Part shown: positions 34,907 to 61,057 of the stretch, piece after piece | How positions within the stretch are numbered: position 1 is the stretch's first letter | Layout of the letters: every line of letters starts with the position of its first letter | Source: Methylocystis sp. | Lineage (GTDB): Bacteria; Pseudomonadota; Alphaproteobacteria; Rhizobiales; Beijerinckiaceae | NCBI RefSeq assembly: GCF_021731785.1 | Contig: NZ_JAKFWS010000041.1 | Coordinates: 1-64,000, forward strand | Direction of reading: 5' to 3' | DNA: 64,000 bases | The notes under the pieces: generated by a model | Database searches by the model: none | What the model was told of the DNA's origin: nothing | Seen by the model: only the letters and a program-made list of their open reading frames with translations | Position numbers and translations under genes: made by a program

Positions 34907-34982
34907 GCCCAGGTAGCTCAGTTGGTAGAGCATGCGACTGAAAATCGCAGTGTCGGTGGTTCGATCCCGCCCCTGGGCACCA
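34907..34982 (+). tRNA. tRNA-Phe (GAA)
   Basis: The 76-nt gene folds as a full cloverleaf: acceptor GCCCAGG/CCTGGGC, D arm GCTC/GAGC, anticodon arm TGCGA/TCGCA with loop CTGAAAA (anticodon GAA), T arm GGTGG/CCGCC with TTCGATC loop, and an encoded CCA end. It is the last core-genome feature. The integrase stop codon lies 70 bp downstream, so its 3' half is the probable attachment site of the element that follows. Confidence 0.97.
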
Positions 34983-35052
34983 TTAAAAACAATGACTTAG
35001 AAAAAACTGCTCGGACACTTACGACACAGTTTTCCACCCGGTTTTCCAACTT

Positions 35053-46663: not shown

Positions 46664-49600
46664 TTATTTTTTAGTCTTACTATCTTTACTACTGCTATCC
46701 TTAGCTTCGAATGTTTTTACTGTAGCGGTATTTGTATTTGTTGGATACACGCTAAACGAGATTGCAGGTTCAAGACCGAGAGCGGCGGTAATTGTCCAAA
46801 CGCCACTCTTTGAGACTGACCACGAGATTGAACCAATGCCGAGACTTAGAGTATTCGTGACACCGGTGCCTGCAAGTTGGGACATCCTCGTGGCGTTTGT
46901 AAGCGTTACACCTCCACTTAGCCCACCAGAAAGGCCCAGAACAGTGTAGGGGTTTGGACCACTTCTCGATCCCTCCAGAGTTGTGCTGTGGAATGCTCCG
47001 CCTACGAGACCTCCGTATGAAGTATAACCACTGATATCCGTTGTATCGGTAAAAGGATTTCGATCTGTTACAAAACCTCCTCCAACCGAACCTTGACCCG
47101 CAAAACCAGAGCCAAGCCCTGCAGCGCCGGAAAGATCACCCTGGAAGAAAAAGCCCCAGAGACCCTCTGGGTCTTTCATTGTTATGGGATTCCCGCGCGC
47201 ATAGGCATACGAATTTTGCATTTGGGGGTCGGCCAAATATTCAGCTTGGGAAATCGAGCTGCCTCTTGACCGGGTATTTCCATTCCAGCCTGATGCGTTC
47301 GTTGAATTCAATCCGCCCATTGTCCGAGCTGCATTCATTGACTGAGGATTGTAAAGTGCGCTCTTACCATTTGCGCTCTGTCCAATTTCCCAGAAGACAG
47401 GATCCTGTGAGAGGAACTGACCACGAGACCCCTCGTAGTAACGCGCATTCAGGTAACTCAAATTTGAACTTTCGTCGAATCTTTCGCCGATGAATTCTCG
47501 GTCGCTGACATCCTCACCGCTTTCGATTCTTTTGGTGCCATAAGGATAGTAGTCGAGTGTCTGCACCACGTCACCACTGGCATTGGTGACCATGTTGGCA
47601 GAACCTAAGTGATCCGAGTGGATGTAGCTAGCGGACGTGGTCGCTTGGCTGTACGAACTCGGCGTGGAGGAACTGACGAACCGGATGTTGTCGAAATAAG
47701 CCGTCGTGATCGTATTTGAGATAAACGTGAATCCTCTGGACGTCGTTGCCGTCGCCGCCGAATTGATGTCGGTCAGAGGAATGCGGACGTCATACCAGGT
47801 GCTCGGAGCCAACGCTCCAGTGTAGGTGGTGAGATTCACTTCTCCCAAGGAGTTGTTGGCGGTATCGTGCATCTTTATGATGAGCTGGGTGGGGCTGGTG
47901 GTGCCTGAGTAGAATTGAAAGGCAAGATGCGTGGAGCCTGCGGTATTAAAGCCCGCGTGATTTAAGAACAGGCCCCCGTACGCCGCGGTATAGGCGACCT
48001 TGGCTGCATAGAGTCCTGTCGCAACGGTGGAGGTTGATGTGAAGTGGTTACTGGTGTTGTACGACCAGTCGGACCAGCCCGATCCGAGTCCTTCACTGTA
48101 CAGGGTTCCGGTGGTTGAGGTTGCGATGATCTTTAAGAATCGGATGTTGTCGTAGGAGACGGTGGTGGCGGTATCGGAGATGAACGTGAAGCCTCGGGAG
48201 GTCGTCGCTGCGGCCGAGGCATGAATATCGGTGAGAGGTACGGCAACATCGTACCAGGTATTGGCACTGAAGCTGCCGGTGTAATCACTCAAATTCACCG
48301 TCCCAAGCTCTGCGTTCGCCGTATCGTGCATCTTTACGATGACTTCTCCCGGGGGGACAGCGCCGCTGTAGAACTGGAATCCGAGGTGGGTGGAGCCGGT
48401 GGTGTTGTACCCCGCATGGTTGAGGAAGAGGCCACCGTAGGCCGACGTATAGGTCACGCCGATAGCGTAGGTGCCGCTGTATACGTGCGCTGTAGAGGCA
48501 AAATCCCTGGTCGCGTTATACGACCAGTCGGACCACCCTGTCTGGAGTGAATCACTGTAAAGCGTCTGCGGAGCAAGGAGCAGGGCACCGCCACCGGTGA
48601 TCGTACCGACCATGTCCCCGCTCGGAGTGAACACGTATTTCGTAGTCGTACCCGTTGAAGTGATGCTGAAGTACTTGTTGGGGTAGTAGGTGGAGAGTGC
48701 GCCGACGCTCATCCGCGACCGTTGGTTGGAGTGGTCATACGCATAACTTGAGGTCGCGTTTCCCGCCGCCGCCTCAAGGAGGCGATTTCGATAGTCCCAC
48801 GCATAACCGGTTGACCCTTTTGAAATGAGGTTGCCGTTGTTGTCGTATGAGTACGTCGTGCCGTTGATCGTGGTGGGGGCGTGAGGGTTGGAGTAATTGG
48901 TCTCCGCATAGGTATACGTCCCCATGTCAGTGCTTGAAGTGATGTTGCCAATGCTGCTGTACGCGTACGTACGAAAATATGGCGTTGAGCTTGCGACCGT
49001 GGTGGAGGCCGTTATGAGACGATTCAGGTCATCATAGGTGTACGCTACCGTTTTACCGAGTCCGTTACTCGAGTAGTCGGTAAGCTGCGTAATGTTGCCG
49101 TTCGCGTCATACGTGTAGGAAACATTCTGGAGATTCGCGCTTCCCTTCGTAGTCACAATACTACTAAGGCGATAGAGCTTCGCAGGATCATACGTATACG
49201 TACTCGCAGAACCGTTTTGGAATGCCTTGTACGTAACCTGTCGCGTCGGCCCATAATCAAAGTCGGAAACCATGTTCACCACATTGCCGCCGTTTTCTTT
49301 TTGTTGCACGGCTTCGAGAAGTCCCGCCGTGTTGTAGATGTATGTGACCTCGGAAAGGTCCGGGTACATGATATTGGTCACATTACCCTGTCGATCATAC
49401 GTATGTGTAAGCACGTATGTCGTGCCGCTGATATTCTCTTTCTCGCTTTCCACGAGCCCGAGAGGGTTGTAGGAGTAATTCACTACGGTATCTGTCGAAG
49501 TCGCCGCACAGAGCCTCCCTTTGCCCTGAGTGCAGGAGTCATATTTGTATAAGATTTCCGTCCCACTCCGGCCCGTATAGTCTTCCGTAAGCGGCCTGTT

Positions 49601-52600
49601 GAGCGCATCGTATGTCCAGTTCACCGTCTGACTTTTGGGATCGACCTGTTGCGTCATGTTGCCTGCGTCGTCGTAGGCATACGTGTAGGTGCCGAAGGTA
49701 CCGTCGGCCGACGCGTGCAGGTCTTGTGCAGTGAGACGGCGCGAGAGGCCGTCGTAAGTGAAGTTGCGGATGTTACCGAGTGCGTCGGTGATCTTTGTCA
49801 GGTTATTGATGGCGTCGTACGCATAGTACGTCGAATATGTGTCCCCACCGTTCTTCTCGTTCACCTGCACGAGGTTGTCGAACGCATCTCGGAAGAATTC
49901 TTTCTGTTTTCCACGTGGATCGGTCGTCGTCACCTTCCAAGGGCTGTACGCGTTCGTCATAGAACCGACTGCATTCGTGGTATTGGTCGGACGCCGGAGC
50001 GCATCATAGACGTACGTCGTAAAAAGTTGCGTCGTCGTTGTGGGCGATGTGTACGAACTACTTGAGGAGAAGTACGGTAGCGACTCTGACGCTACAAGCC
50101 CGTTCTGGCCGTATGTGGTATCGCGCGCGATGAAGGTATTGCTTACCTCGGCGGTCTTGCGCTCCTGGATTAGGCGGCCGAGGCCGTCGAGGTATTGGTA
50201 TGTGTCTGTTGTGGTCGCGCTGTTGAGATAGTCAGTACGGCGCACGGACGACGGCAGCGTGTTATCGATGTAGGTGAAGGATGACTTGGTGACAAGGGTT
50301 GAGGGCGTCGTAAGGTCGGGCTGCTTCAAGAGTACCGGCCGGCCGACGCCGTCATACACCATCGCCGTGACGAGGCCATTAGGGTCGGTCGTGGTTGCAA
50401 CTTTTCCCGAGGCGTAGTCGTAGATGTAGGCGGTCGGCTGTGAGAGTGCATTGGTGCTCGTTGCGACGAAGAGATTGTAAGAGTCGTAGGTGTACGAGGT
50501 CGCGTTCCCCCTCCCATCCTTCGACTGCGTGACGAGGCCGTACGAATTGTATGCCCGAGTGGTGCTGGCGTACGAAGTGCCGTTCTTCCACTCTTCGGTC
50601 TTCGTCTCATTGCCAAGACTCACGGAACCGAGCGAGAGATTGTCGTAGTAGCGGCGGGTCTGCTTAACCTTCGTGCCACTCTGGTCGACAGTAACTTCAT
50701 CCGATGGCGCGATCTTCACACTGGAGCTCGCACTTGACGCGTATGTGATCGTGGTTGTGCGGATGTCGGTTCCAGTGTCGGTGAAGGTTCCATCGGTCGA
50801 CGCGGTAACCTCTCCCCAATCCTTCTGCTCTGTGAGGTTCCCAGTGCTCGTCGAGTATGTGAACGACACCGCACGATCGCGATGCGTCCCGCCGCCGTCA
50901 TACGTAAGGTCGATAGTCTGCGCGAGAAATGGAAAGCTTGCGCCCAGTGTCGTCGATGCTTCGTCCCTCTTGGTGATCGTTATCTTGTACTTGTTGCCGG
51001 ACAGGTCGGTTGTCACAATGCGAAACGGCATACCGATCTTCGCGTATGAGTCGTTGTATTCCCCGATCGTCGAGGTCGAAGTGTTTCCTTGGTGGAAGTA
51101 CGAGGTGATGATGTTGTCGGGATTCGTTTCAGTTACGGTACCAAAGCCCGCGAAGCGCCGATCGATGGGGCTTCCCCACCAGTTAGCACCGCCAACATAC
51201 GAATACGTAGAGGAACTGATCGTACCCAGTCCGTTATTCATGGTGACCGATTGCACGACATCGTACGAGGTCGGCAAAGGGTCTAGGCGATTGCCTAACC
51301 CATCTTTGATAGTGCCCGAGGATTGGTACGCATACGAGACGGTGCCGCCGGTCGGTAACGTGATGGTAGTGAGGAGATCGGAAGAGCCGCCATTACGGAT
51401 GTACGTTGTCGAGGTGCTGCTTTCGCCAGTCACTTGCTGGCTTCGAGAAAAATCGTCGAGCCCGTCACCGTTGAGGTCAGTCAATTGCAGGCCACTGATG
51501 ACGCCGTTGTAGAGGAACGACTCGGGGTACGCGGGACTGGTGGATGCTGCGGGCCATGTGGTGCCGTAGCTCTGTGTCGTATATGTCTCCGTGATGGGCG
51601 TGCCGTTGTTGTCGGATCGCATCACATCAGGAAGTCGGTCAGCGTTTACGTCACTGATCGCGATGCCTCTGGAGTATCCATCCGCCGAGACGACGAACGG
51701 CGCGCTGTAGCTTGCATCATATGTCCAGGCGAGGTTCCCCTGGTTGATGTATACCTTCTGTACCGTGCCGCTACTGTCCGAGTATGCGCGGACGAGATCG
51801 ACGAGACCGTCGCCGTTCACGTCGACGAGTCGCACCCCTTTATCTTTATTGAATACGGAGAAGGTCTCGGGAATGGCTGGCGTGGTCGTTGCCGCCCAAC
51901 CATCGCCGGTATTCAGGTAGATTGTTTGTGAGGCCGGGTTCACGCCGTCAGACCATGACCGCACGGCGTCGGGCAGACCATCACCATTCACATCGCCGAA
52001 GCGGACGCCGTTGTCATAGCCGTTATCGATTATGAACGGTACGGAGGAGCTTGCCTGGTTCACCCAAGTGAGCGTGGACGTGCCGGTGGTTGTCGCCAGA
52101 TAGAGCTTCTGGATGTCTTGAACGCCATTAGACCATGCGCGAACCAGGTCGGGCAGACCATCGCGGTTCGCGTCCAGAAACACAACTCCCTGCGAGGTCT
52201 GAAAGCTCGTCACATACTCGGGCACAGAGATGGATGAGTCGAGGACGAAACTGGAGCCGTTGTTTAAGTAGACTTTGTTGAAGTAGCAGGTGCCGCCGCA
52301 GCCGTTCGGATAGGTATGCGAGCGAAGTATGTCTGTGAGACCATCACCGTTAACGTCAAGCGTGCGTACGCCAAGGTCACCACCGACGCCTGCAATCGCA
52401 AAAAATGCTTCGGGATATGCCCACTGACTCGTTGCATCCGTCCATGTCTTGGTCGCGTGCGTGTACGAGAACTGTGTCGATGGCTTCGTAACAATGTTCC
52501 CCGAAGGGTCGCGGCCCGACTCGGTAACACTGGAGAGGAGTGATCGATTTCCATTATCGCCATTTGCGTATGCGAGCGCGTACTTGCGTCGCCAGTTTGA

Positions 52601-53683
52601 AGAGACAGACGCGCTGACCTCTTTAATCCTATACTGGGTCTTGATAAGGTAGCCAGCCTCGTACGACACCTCTGGATCAGGTCGTGACTCCGTGGTGAAG
52701 GCGACATCAAAGATTCCCGTAGTGGAGCTTGCGCCCGTGTAATTGATGTTGGATGGATACAGCTCATTATTATCCTTAGTGTACGTGTAGCTGATGAAAT
52801 TATTGTTCCGGTCGTATGCCGTTTCGAGCATCCACTGATACTTTTTCGATGTATCGCTCGGATTCTCGTATCGCGCCTGCGCATTCTGTCCATAGGTGTA
52901 TGTCGTGCCGCTCTTGTCGGTCATCTGCCAGTGAGTACTGCTGGCGAATTGGTAAACGTGATAGCCGCCGTTATCGATGCGGGGGCGGTATGATGTGCTC
53001 GTACCAACCTGCACAAGCTCCCCGTCCACCGAACTGTAGAACGTGGTCGTGCCATAGAGCTGATCAATACCTGTCTTATTCAGCCGCTTGATATATGGAA
53101 TCGAGAGAGACCATCCGAAGCCGAGCTGGTTTCGGCGTTCGGAATTCTGACTATTGTAGACAAGGGAAAGGTACGGTTGCAGGCCATTTCGGCCTGGAGG
53201 AATGATCAGGTTGTACGGAATGGAAAGCGAACCATCGTTGAGATTGGGTCGCAGTTTCTCTAATGAAGGTAGCGGCGTTACGGCAGCGCTTGAATTAATC
53301 GTGGTGTCGCCGATGGCGGACTGTGTGGAAAATTCTTCGGGGGGATTCTCGGAGTCTGGTTCCTTTATGGTTGAGTCAGGTTCAGTGGTTGCAGGTGCTG
53401 CAGCAGCATCGATAACAGAGCCTGCTTCCGCAGGCACGTCAATCGTGGCCGGGTTGGCAGCAGCAGGTGTGGTTTCAAGCTCTGTAGTAGGAAGCTGCGG
53501 TACTTCAGGAGCAGTATCCGGCGTCTCGGCGGGTGCGGTGATCTGTGAGTCGCTTACCGACGCGTCGGCCGGTGTGCTCTGGGCAAATGCGATACCTGTC
53601 GATACGACATTGAGGGCAGCAACTAGAACACCGGCAACAATCTTCTTCGCCGTATCAATTTGCCGGGAATAGGCCGACCCCAT
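46664..53683 (-). CDS. Giant SpvB/FG-GAP/RHS-repeat secreted protein
   Basis: The 2,339-residue protein is built of: a signal peptide (to about residue 35, GIAFAQ); a Pro/Thr/Ala/Glu-rich linker (36-140); an SpvB-like N-terminal domain (about 145-420, DGSLSIPYNLIIPPGRNGLQ); six FG-GAP calcium-loop repeats (about 435-745, such as DVNGDGLPDAVRSW); many RHS/YD repeats (about 930-1690, such as YTYDSYNLF, YAYDAINNLT); two copies of a 150-residue galactose-binding-like domain (1708-2005); SYIHSDHLGSANM; the RHS core end RYYEGSRGQFLSQDP (about 2080); and a 240-residue Gly/Ser/Thr-rich C-terminal region. The layout is TcB/TcC-like and suggests a shell carrying a C-terminal cargo. GC is visibly lower than around it and Thr/Ser content very high, pointing to foreign origin. 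The start lacks a Shine-Dalgarno. Confidence 0.85.
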   Translation of the reverse strand: MGSAYSRQIDTAKKIVAGVLVAALNVVSTGIAFAQSTPADASVSDSQITAPAETPDTAPEVPQLPTTELETTPAAANPATIDVPAEAGSVIDAAAAPATTEPDSTIKEPDSENPPEEFSTQSAIGDTTINSSAAVTPLPSLEKLRPNLNDGSLSIPYNLIIPPGRNGLQPYLSLVYNSQNSERRNQLGFGWSLSIPYIKRLNKTGIDQLYGTTTFYSSVDGELVQVGTSTSYRPRIDNGGYHVYQFASSTHWQMTDKSGTTYTYGQNAQARYENPSDTSKKYQWMLETAYDRNNNFISYTYTKDNNELYPSNINYTGASSTTGIFDVAFTTESRPDPEVSYEAGYLIKTQYRIKEVSASVSSNWRRKYALAYANGDNGNRSLLSSVTESGRDPSGNIVTKPSTQFSYTHATKTWTDATSQWAYPEAFFAIAGVGGDLGVRTLDVNGDGLTDILRSHTYPNGCGGTCYFNKVYLNNGSSFVLDSSISVPEYVTSFQTSQGVVFLDANRDGLPDLVRAWSNGVQDIQKLYLATTTGTSTLTWVNQASSSVPFIIDNGYDNGVRFGDVNGDGLPDAVRSWSDGVNPASQTIYLNTGDGWAATTTPAIPETFSVFNKDKGVRLVDVNGDGLVDLVRAYSDSSGTVQKVYINQGNLAWTYDASYSAPFVVSADGYSRGIAISDVNADRLPDVMRSDNNGTPITETYTTQSYGTTWPAASTSPAYPESFLYNGVISGLQLTDLNGDGLDDFSRSQQVTGESSTSTTYIRNGGSSDLLTTITLPTGGTVSYAYQSSGTIKDGLGNRLDPLPTSYDVVQSVTMNNGLGTISSSTYSYVGGANWWGSPIDRRFAGFGTVTETNPDNIITSYFHQGNTSTSTIGEYNDSYAKIGMPFRIVTTDLSGNKYKITITKRDEASTTLGASFPFLAQTIDLTYDGGGTHRDRAVSFTYSTSTGNLTEQKDWGEVTASTDGTFTDTGTDIRTTTITYASSASSSVKIAPSDEVTVDQSGTKVKQTRRYYDNLSLGSVSLGNETKTEEWKNGTSYASTTRAYNSYGLVTQSKDGRGNATSYTYDSYNLFVATSTNALSQPTAYIYDYASGKVATTTDPNGLVTAMVYDGVGRPVLLKQPDLTTPSTLVTKSSFTYIDNTLPSSVRRTDYLNSATTTDTYQYLDGLGRLIQERKTAEVSNTFIARDTTYGQNGLVASESLPYFSSSSSYTSPTTTTQLFTTYVYDALRRPTNTTNAVGSMTNAYSPWKVTTTDPRGKQKEFFRDAFDNLVQVNEKNGGDTYSTYYAYDAINNLTKITDALGNIRNFTYDGLSRRLTAQDLHASADGTFGTYTYAYDDAGNMTQQVDPKSQTVNWTYDALNRPLTEDYTGRSGTEILYKYDSCTQGKGRLCAATSTDTVVNYSYNPLGLVESEKENISGTTYVLTHTYDRQGNVTNIMYPDLSEVTYIYNTAGLLEAVQQKENGGNVVNMVSDFDYGPTRQVTYKAFQNGSASTYTYDPAKLYRLSSIVTTKGSANLQNVSYTYDANGNITQLTDYSSNGLGKTVAYTYDDLNRLITASTTVASSTPYFRTYAYSSIGNITSSTDMGTYTYAETNYSNPHAPTTINGTTYSYDNNGNLISKGSTGYAWDYRNRLLEAAAGNATSSYAYDHSNQRSRMSVGALSTYYPNKYFSITSTGTTTKYVFTPSGDMVGTITGGGALLLAPQTLYSDSLQTGWSDWSYNATRDFASTAHVYSGTYAIGVTYTSAYGGLFLNHAGYNTTGSTHLGFQFYSGAVPPGEVIVKMHDTANAELGTVNLSDYTGSFSANTWYDVAVPLTDIHASAAATTSRGFTFISDTATTVSYDNIRFLKIIATSTTGTLYSEGLGSGWSDWSYNTSNHFTSTSTVATGLYAAKVAYTAAYGGLFLNHAGFNTAGSTHLAFQFYSGTTSPTQLIIKMHDTANNSLGEVNLTTYTGALAPSTWYDVRIPLTDINSAATATTSRGFTFISNTITTAYFDNIRFVSSSTPSSYSQATTSASYIHSDHLGSANMVTNASGDVVQTLDYYPYGTKRIESGEDVSDREFIGERFDESSNLSYLNARYYEGSRGQFLSQDPVFWEIGQSANGKSALYNPQSMNAARTMGGLNSTNASGWNGNTRSRGSSISQAEYLADPQMQNSYAYARGNPITMKDPEGLWGFFFQGDLSGAAGLGSGFAGQGSVGGGFVTDRNPFTDTTDISGYTSYGGLVGGAFHSTTLEGSRSGPNPYTVLGLSGGLSGGVTLTNATRMSQLAGTGVTNTLSLGIGSISWSVSKSGVWTITAALGLEPAISFSVYPTNTNTATVKTFEAKDSSSKDSKTKK
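47673..48562 (-). repeat. Tandem duplication of a 150-residue domain within the RHS gene
   Basis: Copy 1 (48562-48104) and copy 2 (48103-about 47673) encode the same domain: both contain GWSDWSYN, AYGGLFLNHAG, GSTHL-FQFYSG, IVKMHDTAN or IIKMHDTAN and ATTSRGFTFIS. Many positions differ, so the duplication is not recent. The fold looks like a beta-sandwich carbohydrate-binding type. They are placed inside the RHS region, just before the core. Confidence 0.9.
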
Positions 53684-58676: not shown

Positions 58677-60155
58677 TTATCGGTCGACGCGCCATTGGGC
58701 GAGCGTCTTGATTTTGGAGGTGTGACGCTGGGCAGTGATCTGATCGCGCTTGCGTTCGAACATCGTCTTGCGGAGTGACCCGGAGAAGGATGCCGACTGC
58801 GCGGTCGCGGCTTTCTCAATGGCGTTGCGTTCGGCGCGGGAGAGCGTCTTGAAGATGTGTCGCGCCTGCGAGCGGCGATAGACCTCGTAGGCGGCGCGCT
58901 CGTCTTCAGCCTGTCGCTCCTGGGATGCCTTCGCCTCGGCCTTCTTCATTGCCGCCCGTGCGCTCCTGCCCGATAGGTAGCCGGCGAGATACTGGCGGAC
59001 GCCGCCGAGGGTCTGCACGTCGAACTTGGTGCGCTTCGCCTCGGCGAGCGCATAGTCGAAGAAGGCGGGCATCTCCTCGAAGCCGATCTGGGCAAGAAGG
59101 CTCTTGGCGGTCTCGACTTCCTTGGAACTGACATAGGCCTGCGACTCGACCTTGCGGCCGGTGCGCTTCTCGACGAAGAGGTAGGCGACGCGCAGCGGCT
59201 CTGCGACACTGCGCTGGTCGTTGGCGAAGTCCCACTGCAATTCGCCCTGTGACCGGTTGCGGTAGAAGCGATCATAGTCGCGGAAGAAGCCCGCCCCCGG
59301 CCGGAAGGCGATGACGAATCCGGCCTCGTCCCCTTTGGCCTTGGTGATGCGGAAAGAGGACAGGAAGCGGGTGGCGATGAGCTGCTCAAGATGCGGCCCG
59401 AGCCGCTCCTGGATCTTCGACACGTGCTTCACCGTGGCCAGCCCCCCGAGCCATTCGAGGCACATGTCGTCGTAGCGCTTCTGGAACTCCAGCTTCGTCC
59501 GGTTGCGGCCGTCGTACAGATTGGCGAAATGGAAGAAGGCGCGCATGTAAAGGGCCTGGCCAATGGTGCCCAACTCCTGCATCAGGGTGAAGTTGAGGCA
59601 GGTGAAATGATCCTCCCCAAGCGACCGGACGATCGGCTCTGCCAGGGTAATGGTGCAGGCCTCGATCGGGTCGCTGGCGAACTCGCGCCGCTCGATGAGT
59701 ATCTCGGGGAAGATATTGAACGAGTGCTCGACGTGCCGGCCGTTCTCCTTTTTGAAATGGGTGCGGATGAACGTGTAGTGAATCTGGTGCAAGGCGCGGG
59801 CGAGCTGTTCGCTGTCGCGGCCGCCCCACTCCTTACGGCCGATGAGCCGGCCGATCTCCCGCCGGGTGAAGGAGATTTCGTTGCGGATGGGTCGACCGTA
59901 GTCGGAGTGCTTCTTGAGGAGCGCGACGAATATCTTATGCGCCAAGGGGCCTGGCTGCCCGAGCCTTGGGTCGGGGCGGATGGTGATGTGCCGCTCGGTC
60001 TCGCCCCGGCGCAAACGTATCTCGTCGGTGTGCTTCCCGGCCGCCCGGTGATCGTGACAGAAGAGCGCGCCGGCGACGCGCAGTAGGGTGCTCTCCATGA
60101 AGAGTTTTTCTTCGGTCGGGGTTTGCAGCTCCTCCTTGCTGTCGGTTGCGCGCAT
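58677..60155 (-). CDS. repA: Plasmid replication initiator protein A (RPA type)
   Basis: The 492-residue protein shows the RPA initiator pattern: HITIRPDPRLGQPGPLAHKI, SFTRREIGRLIGRKEWGG, FNIFPEILIERREFAS and FCHDHRAAGKHTDEIR near the N-terminus, consistent with tandem winged-helix domains. The C-terminal third is basic and helical. It should bind the iterons and open the origin. ATG 60155 is used; a GTG at 60212 would add 19 residues but lacks a ribosome site. A CTGTCGCGACAG palindrome lies upstream of it. The HTH protein gene precedes it on the same strand. Confidence 0.85.
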   Translation of the reverse strand: MRATDSKEELQTPTEEKLFMESTLLRVAGALFCHDHRAAGKHTDEIRLRRGETERHITIRPDPRLGQPGPLAHKIFVALLKKHSDYGRPIRNEISFTRREIGRLIGRKEWGGRDSEQLARALHQIHYTFIRTHFKKENGRHVEHSFNIFPEILIERREFASDPIEACTITLAEPIVRSLGEDHFTCLNFTLMQELGTIGQALYMRAFFHFANLYDGRNRTKLEFQKRYDDMCLEWLGGLATVKHVSKIQERLGPHLEQLIATRFLSSFRITKAKGDEAGFVIAFRPGAGFFRDYDRFYRNRSQGELQWDFANDQRSVAEPLRVAYLFVEKRTGRKVESQAYVSSKEVETAKSLLAQIGFEEMPAFFDYALAEAKRTKFDVQTLGGVRQYLAGYLSGRSARAAMKKAEAKASQERQAEDERAAYEVYRRSQARHIFKTLSRAERNAIEKAATAQSASFSGSLRKTMFERKRDQITAQRHTSKIKTLAQWRVDR

Positions 60156-60190
60156 ATCCTCGAAGTATAGCCTGCGACAGCCGTCGTTCC

Positions 60191-60202
60191 CTGTCGCGAC
60201 AG
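60191..60202. promoter_or_regulatory. 12-bp palindrome upstream of the initiator gene
   Basis: CTGTCGCGACAG is a perfect palindrome 36 bp before the repA ATG and 22 bp after the HTH gene stop. It contains the same TGTCGCG core as the phased array inside the HTH gene, so it is a good candidate operator for that protein. Confidence 0.55.
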
Positions 60203-60224
60203 GCCGCGACACTGTGGAGAACTC

Positions 60225-60896
60225 TTACTGCTGATGCTGCTGCGGGAACTGCTGCGACGCCTGGTGCGGGTCTGGCGATCCGAGCAACGGTGCCAGCATC
60301 CGCTGCAACCCGCCGATGAGCACGTTGGTCTCTCGGCTGCGCTCGGTTAGTTCCTTGATTTGCGCGTCCTTGGTTGAGACCTGTCCGCGTAAAAAGTCGA
60401 CCTCGCTTTCGAGGCGGGCGACATAGCGCGTGTCGGCGTCGGTTGTCGCGACCTGTCGCGGCTTGTCGTCACTTGTCGCGGCTGCTGTCGCACCTTGTCG
60501 CTCGGCATTTCCTAGGTTTTCATCGTGCATGTCGCCGCTTGTCGCGTCATGTCGCGGCACGTCGTGGCCTGTCGCTGCTTCCTGTCGTGGCCTGTCGTGG
60601 CTCGAAACGCCAGTATTATCGACCGCGAACGGTCGCGACATGTCGCGACTTGTCGCGTCATTGATTTCCTGAACATAGGCGATGTGCTTGTCGAGCGACG
60701 CCGGTGAGATGAGATATTTCTCGCCGAAAGGGGTTTCGATCAGCCGGGCTTCAAGGTGGCCTTTGGCGCAATAGCGCTGCACGCTGCGGGGCGTCCGGGG
60801 GAGCCCGGCGCGGGCATATCGCTCCAAGGCCTCGTCGATGGTGAGCGTAAAGTCCGTGTCGAGGCTTGTCGCGACATGTCGCGGCTGGTCGTCCAT
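60225..60896 (-). CDS. HTH/coiled-coil DNA-binding protein, probable replication or partition regulator
   Basis: The 223-residue protein has an N-terminal MerR/excisionase-like HTH (about 15-75; TIDEALERYARAGLPRTPRS then RYCAKGHLEARLIETPFGEK), a low-complexity polar middle (about 79-150) encoded by phased TGTCG repeats, a coiled coil (about 150-195; ARLESEVDFLRGQVSTKDAQ) and a Gln-rich tail. HTH-plus-coiled-coil proteins next to repA often control replication or partition (KfrA-like). Its own gene is full of sites like those upstream of repA, so it probably binds there; this is inference. Confidence 0.65.
   Translation of the reverse strand: MDDQPRHVATSLDTDFTLTIDEALERYARAGLPRTPRSVQRYCAKGHLEARLIETPFGEKYLISPASLDKHIAYVQEINDATSRDMSRPFAVDNTGVSSHDRPRQEAATGHDVPRHDATSGDMHDENLGNAERQGATAAATSDDKPRQVATTDADTRYVARLESEVDFLRGQVSTKDAQIKELTERSRETNVLIGGLQRMLAPLLGSPDPHQASQQFPQQHQQ
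60443..60656. repeat. Helically phased decamer array (TGTCG core) inside a coding sequence
   Basis: On the plus strand, YTGTCGCGRC-like units start at 60444, 454, 464, 474, 486, 496, then 530, 540, 550, 560, 570, 583, 593, then 631, 641, 651. Almost every step is exactly 10 bp, that is, one helical turn. Some units are variants (GTCGTG, CGTCG, GGTCG). Another three, at 60867, 60877 and 60887, mark the start of the same gene. Because 10 is not a multiple of three, the units fall in all reading frames and encode different residues, indicating selection on DNA. Confidence 0.88.
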
Positions 60897-61057
60897 GGGG
60901 GAATGATACCCCGGCTCCTTCCACGCCTCGCCGGGTTATCCCCAAGACGTGCAACCAATTCAGAGAGGGCGAGCTAGGATACAGGGCGCGTGTAGGTTGG
61001 CAACTAAACAGGCCGGGTGTAGATGGACGACAAATATATTCAGAGTAGTATGGCGAT

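Follow-up and report, generated by a model that had tools for sequence, protein, structure and literature searches.

Binding sites which lie inside a gene and encode a linker of its product are already known from lambdoid O genes and from RepA_N plasmids. In lambdoid phages, ori-lambda is located in the middle of the O gene and consists of repeats bound by the initiator; where additional repeats are present, the encoded protein is longer (PMC7466680). In RepA_N plasmids, e.g. pSK41, four Rep boxes lie centrally in rep and code for a linker domain, the N-terminal domain being a winged helix-turn-helix (wHTH) (PMC5703833). Here, we describe a gene of related architecture, found in a window of 64,000 nucleotides (positions 1 to 64,000 of contig NZ_JAKFWS010000041.1, assembly GCF_021731785.1, Methylocystis sp.). 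An open reading frame (ORF) on the minus strand at 60225-60896 (223 codons plus stop) encodes a 223-residue protein with predicted wHTH and coiled coil, and contains many copies of the word CGACA, often exactly 10 bp apart. As far as the cited accounts go, this window gene resembles lambda O in that repeats inside the gene encode a disordered linker; however, lambda has four iterons, whereas the window gene has many units of about 10 bp in two segments and encodes a predicted MerR/Xis-type wHTH plus coiled coil, and, unlike in lambda, a separate initiator gene lies downstream. With pSK41 rep it shares central repeats over the linker and an N-terminal wHTH, but its product has no RepA_N match (E ≤ 1), and the initiator family differs.

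The fold group closest to the window protein is that of BldC and RdfS. These wHTH proteins form cooperative head-to-tail oligomers and, on direct repeats, BldC covers about one helical turn per subunit in its extended complex (PMC5859096, PMC11963761). According to these accounts, BldC lacks a coiled coil, whereas the window protein has a predicted one; moreover, the BldC and RdfS sites are promoters or attachment DNA, whereas the window array lies in the protein's own coding sequence. KfrA of IncP-1 and IncU plasmids combines, like the window protein, an HTH head with a coiled coil; it is autoregulated, and its site in plasmid RA3 comprises five 9-bp repeats (PMC7821693). That site is described as overlapping a promoter, and the window protein has no KfrA family match (E ≤ 1). 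In literature searches on the word, on gene-embedded origins and on integrative elements, the family was not described among the matches listed. As far as searched, four features are new: the family to which the protein belongs, words that are densely placed about one turn apart in two disordered segments, an association between word and recognition helix, and the setting in an integrative element.

The predicted layout of the 223-residue protein comprises a short disordered N-terminus, a wHTH (residues ~12-85), a linker (~90-150), a coiled coil (153-201) and a Q-rich tail, which agrees with the HTH/coiled-coil protein proposed in a preliminary description of this locus. In the AlphaFold2 model, the linker is disordered (pLDDT, the predicted local confidence, below 50) and the winged helix is of the MerR/Xis type; BldC, Xis, MerR proteins and RacA are the fold neighbours of the model. 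At the sequence level, PF12728 (HTH_17) scored 16.4 bits, which is under the curated cut-off of 27 bits. Pfam contained no O, RepA_N or KfrA family match at E ≤ 1, and PHROG families gave zero matches at the same threshold. Likewise, a sequence search of solved structures with family alignment A3 gave none at E ≤ 1.

The CGACA array in the gene and its relatives

On the coding strand of the window gene, 19 exact CGACA words occur: three at the start codon (60857-60881), one in the wHTH-coding part (60689-60693) and 15 in the linker (60431-60655, 225 bp). Synonymous codons were shuffled within the gene 2000 times, such that protein and codon use were kept. These permutations gave on average 6.85 words, and none reached 19; for pairs exactly 10 bp apart, 10 were observed versus 1.03 in the permuted sequences, and again none of the 2000 reached the native number. 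An unbiased 5-mer scan of the gene ranked CGACA/TGTCG first (22 on both strands versus 7.9). Three of ten neighbouring control genes contained a 5-mer that stood out at a nominal p below 0.05: L037:6837-7664, L002:3685-5223 and L034:3058-3852, the signal being strong in the latter. Only L002:3685-5223, an RPA-like gene adjoining an array, also had an excess of 10-bp pairing (p = 0.013). In the whole contig of 160,688 bp, there are 11 same-strand CGACA pairs spaced ten bp, all within 60197-60881.

The preliminary description had counted sixteen TGTCG units in 210 bp, with a 10-bp step, rare 12- and 13-bp steps, and every site on one face of the helix. The dense array is real, although the linker holds 15 exact units over 225 bp. 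Its 14 steps are, in order, 10, 48, 10, 13, 20, 10, 10, 34, 10, 12, 10, 10, 10 and 13 bp; thus eight are exactly 10 bp, one is 12 and two are 13, but steps of 20, 34 and 48 bp occur as well. Because six of the 14 steps deviate from 10 bp, the array consists of helix-phased runs and does not present a single face throughout. The three further units at the start codon were found as described, with exact 10-bp steps, and the units do fall in all reading frames (7/7/5 for the 19 words). The unit consensus, derived from 91 units of seven close genes, is approximately GYCGCGACAR. The layout recurs: CGACA triples near the start codon are also present in L017, L020 and L022, and the single word in the wHTH-coding part has a counterpart at the equivalent place in L001, L002, L004 and L009.

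For a comparison of DNA and peptide, five relatives were used, three from one Alphaproteobacteria metagenome-assembled genome (MAG), one from a Methylocystis MAG and one from Rhodoplanes elegans. Their linkers are 36-69% identical to that of the window protein (39/73, 52/75, 31/74, 34/70 and 24/66), whereas wHTH (48/68 to 64/68) and coil (28/40 to 49/50) together span 70-98%. Summed over the relatives, 298 of 347 bases in the linker's repeat cores match the window gene, versus 413 of 727 non-core bases; in codons with a changed amino acid, the numbers are 57/93 and 152/441, respectively. These counts were summed by us, the comparisons are not independent, and the cores were defined on the window gene. 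Core bases are thus retained more often than non-core bases, and the word persists at the DNA level although the linker peptide changes. The alignment of homologues, suggested earlier as a check, supports the view that selection acts on DNA more than on peptide.

The family is sparsely distributed. Among genomes sampled from the order (397), the class (385) and the phylum (349), profile searches found it in 11 (full alignment) or 12 (wHTH alignment), in 2 and in 2, respectively, the genome of the window being included in each count; within three small families, 2/5, 1/3 and 1/2 genomes were positive. CGACA arrays also occur in relatives with only 21-26% overall protein identity. A set of 24 genes was compiled, which excludes the fragment L018 and duplicates of places already included (L006, L007, L023, L025, L047 and others). 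CGACA is enriched, with at most 16 of 2000 permutations reaching the native number, in 12 of the 13 genes with the recognition helix [VIL]QRY[CA] and in none of the 11 others; the thirteenth, L009, is cut by a contig end. Some distant relatives have arrays of a different word, the alternatives having been selected once the sequences had been inspected. For GCGACGC, L026 and L057 show a clear excess (0/2000), L013 a weak one (36/2000) and the window gene a nominal one (27/2000); CCAGAC is enriched in L010 (1/2000). In L057 and L026, the alternative word is placed before the wHTH and in the linker, like CGACA in the window gene. If a gene's product reads the array, the word is expected to change with the recognition helix; this was found, and the comparison supports a joint change of both. 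As the family genes share clade structure, the number of independent events is small.

The integrative element and the genes next to the array

The array gene belongs to an integrative element of about 39.4 kb, of which positions 34936-64000 are part of the window. The element ends in a 49/50-bp direct repeat of the 3' part of tRNA-Phe (34936-34985 and contig position 74312-74361, outside the window), the copies being 39.4 kb apart. It encodes two tyrosine integrases, a TrwB-type coupling protein, Replic_Relax, ArdC and a type I restriction subunit. The contig, which carries YchF and a GyrB/ParE-type gene, is chromosomal; hence, the plasmid setting assumed in the preliminary description is not supported. 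A plasmid origin was also rejected by a search of PLSDB, where none of 72,556 plasmids matched the 223-residue protein at E ≤ 1e-5; matches at E up to 5 (49 Enterococcus, one Staphylococcus; best listed E 0.8) were taken as noise. Two divergent family members gave none at 1e-3. The element further contains an ORF of 2339 residues (46664-53683), and at the very start of the contig (1-127), the 14-bp unit GGAGTCTTGCCGAA is repeated perfectly in tandem (9.1 copies).

Downstream of the array gene lies the gene of an RPA-type replication initiator (58677-60212, minus strand, longest ORF), although translation may actually begin at the ATG at 60155. Between the array gene and this presumed start, at 60175-60211, the palindrome CTGTCGCGACAG (60191-60202) is accompanied by three plus-strand CGACA words (60175-60179, 60197-60201 and 60207-60211), the last two of which are spaced 10 bp; the palindromic copy reported upstream of "repA" is therefore present. 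The product of this "repA" is a divergent member of the RPA family: PF10134 scores 27.1 bits versus a cut-off of 27.0. It also matched two Rubrobacter plasmids, annotated as TrfA, at about 25% identity. The genome has a canonical RPA gene as well, which is located on another contig close to a 23-bp repeat (2.7 copies, L314:8471-8533).

Upstream of the array gene, TGGGGATAA (TTATCCCCA on the plus strand) is located at 60936-60944 on the minus strand, 48 bp before the start codon; we take this box to be DnaA-box-like. With at most one mismatch, it was found at -47 to -50 in 15 of the 24 otherwise divergent family genes, for which start codons were assigned by us; exact GGGGATAA is present upstream in 13 of 24, versus a background of about 0.018 per 250 bp. 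In family genes, the box is followed by a -10-like hexamer abutting the ATG, as judged by eye. In the window, this is TATCAT (60903-60908, minus strand, noted by eye and unscored). As it lies 7-12 bp before the ATG, the transcript would be leaderless. A promoter scan did not list TATCAT among its candidates and proposed a different one at 60976-61003.

Initiator-like genes are common neighbours of the family: of 21 wider loci, 13 have one close to the family gene, as does the window; in the other eight, an initiator was not identified by limited tests, some stretches being short. In the window, the family gene is followed by that of an RPA-like initiator, and so it is in L001, L002, L003 and L005, where the relatives are 60-92% identical. 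In L004, L027, L031, L032, L034, L035, L038 and L041, a small protein with an FTQVPN-type motif is encoded beside the family gene; HTH_36 was confirmed in all three FTQVPN-type proteins scanned. In L037, a Rep_3 initiator lies about 0.6 kb from the family gene, and a VirC1/ParA-type gene (L037:9157-9810) is divergent on the other side.

Possible roles of the array

As relatives keep the words while the peptide drifts, the gene probably doubles as the site array of its own product. We assign a probability of roughly one half to the reading that the coding DNA of the wHTH/coiled-coil gene holds putative sites for this product, which serve as operator and as a replication or maintenance complex. 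The words, one helical turn apart, lie mainly in DNA for the disordered N-terminus and linker, so that the DNA can be kept without damage to the fold. Protein subunits would bind the array head to tail in the fashion of BldC. The start-codon cluster would act as operator, giving autoregulation, and the linker cluster would build a nucleoprotein complex for the adjacent initiator (RPA-like here, HTH_36 or Rep_3 elsewhere), which may start or maintain replication of the excised element. A more specific version is possible, but we propose it tentatively: a BldC-like wHTH with a coiled coil would form a self-templated filament, one turn per subunit, on the words in the disordered parts of its own gene; this filament, and not a classical iteron initiator, would license the adjacent replication protein, and word and helix would evolve together.

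Arrays of the same kind exist outside the family. When viral contigs were scanned for three GCGACA words spaced 10 bp, 97 stretches were found, compared with 26 for the reversed word and at least 120 for a spacing of 11 bp. An ORF of at least 180 residues covers the array in 47/97 (10 bp), 4/26 (reversed) and, among the matches listed, 69/120 (11 bp) cases. Eight of the first ten proteins with 11-bp arrays match DnaD-like or replication-initiation families, as do two of eight with 10-bp arrays (the first ten minus L087, which was unscanned, and L091, with an earlier Prim-Pol match). Of eight dense viral arrays picked by hand, six are in O-like, DnaD-like, initiator, helicase-loader or Prim-Pol genes, and two had no match. 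At the IMG/VR loci L209, L244, L211, L091 and others, GCGACA arrays with 10- or 11-bp steps reside inside phage replication-type genes. Replication genes thus frequently contain embedded arrays, and by analogy this supports a role in replication. No relative was found in IMG/VR with family alignment A1, and the stretches of the first viral scan encode no family member according to alignment A3. In the 397 genomes, a single GCGACA triple was outside family genes (G341:C42; L321, reverse, ~1500), with a neighbour resembling a tRNA 3' end by eye.

No clear excess of the tested words was seen in 8 of the 24 family genes (L009, L011, L012, L014, L015, L016, L019 and L065); homologues with conserved peptide and no phasing, named in the preliminary description as the contrary case, were not seen among the CGACA members, but these eight lack a clear array. 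The viral arrays also keep the neighbouring initiator in play as the reader. The units would then be iterons of that protein (RPA, HTH_36/DnaD-like or Rep_3), and the gene would only host the origin. The initiator-like neighbours, the viral arrays inside initiator genes and the single scanned HTH_36 partner, which matches some PHROG families of viral array proteins, fit this explanation; however, the word remains CGACA with each of three initiator types that are unrelated to one another, and no 10-bp pair occurs in four stretches which surround RPA-family genes (one RPA match being partial) but lack a family gene. The reversed-word control also gave one initiator among four proteins, and the sharing of the word with viral arrays is partly due to selection, because the viral scans were conditioned on it. 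On balance, we regard iterons of the neighbour as rather unlikely, yet deserving serious attention.

Self-read arrays could also serve other purposes. In a partition or positioning role, the array would be a centromere, with the encoded protein acting on it as a ParB-like factor or as a single-protein one like Par or KfrA; this is improbable, as all frames of the contig (160,688 bp) lack a ParA-type KGGxGK[TS] motif, and an integrated element presumably has little need of partition. Still less probable is autoregulation alone, i.e. a large operator silencing the array gene and the initiator gene. The three units directly after the -10-like hexamer and ATG, and those just before the RPA gene, would suit it, but an operator would seem to need fewer than the fifteen units of the linker, which lie 240-460 bp into the gene. 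That the repeats reflect mutational tandem duplication or low complexity of the protein, devoid of any function of the DNA, is very improbable: the linker is indeed of low complexity, and a tandem-repeat finder calls short arrays there, but the units occupy all frames, exceed synonymous permutations and are found again in relatives, and even in changed codons, core bases agree more often than the rest.

Within one gene, the family offers natural variants of a DNA-binding helix together with matching variants of its likely sites, so that the rules by which a MerR/Xis-type wHTH recognizes direct repeats could become readable and testable. The array also hints at a way in which some integrative elements may replicate or be maintained once excised, and suggests that helix-phased arrays embedded in replication genes are not confined to lambdoid phages and staphylococcal plasmids but extend well beyond them.
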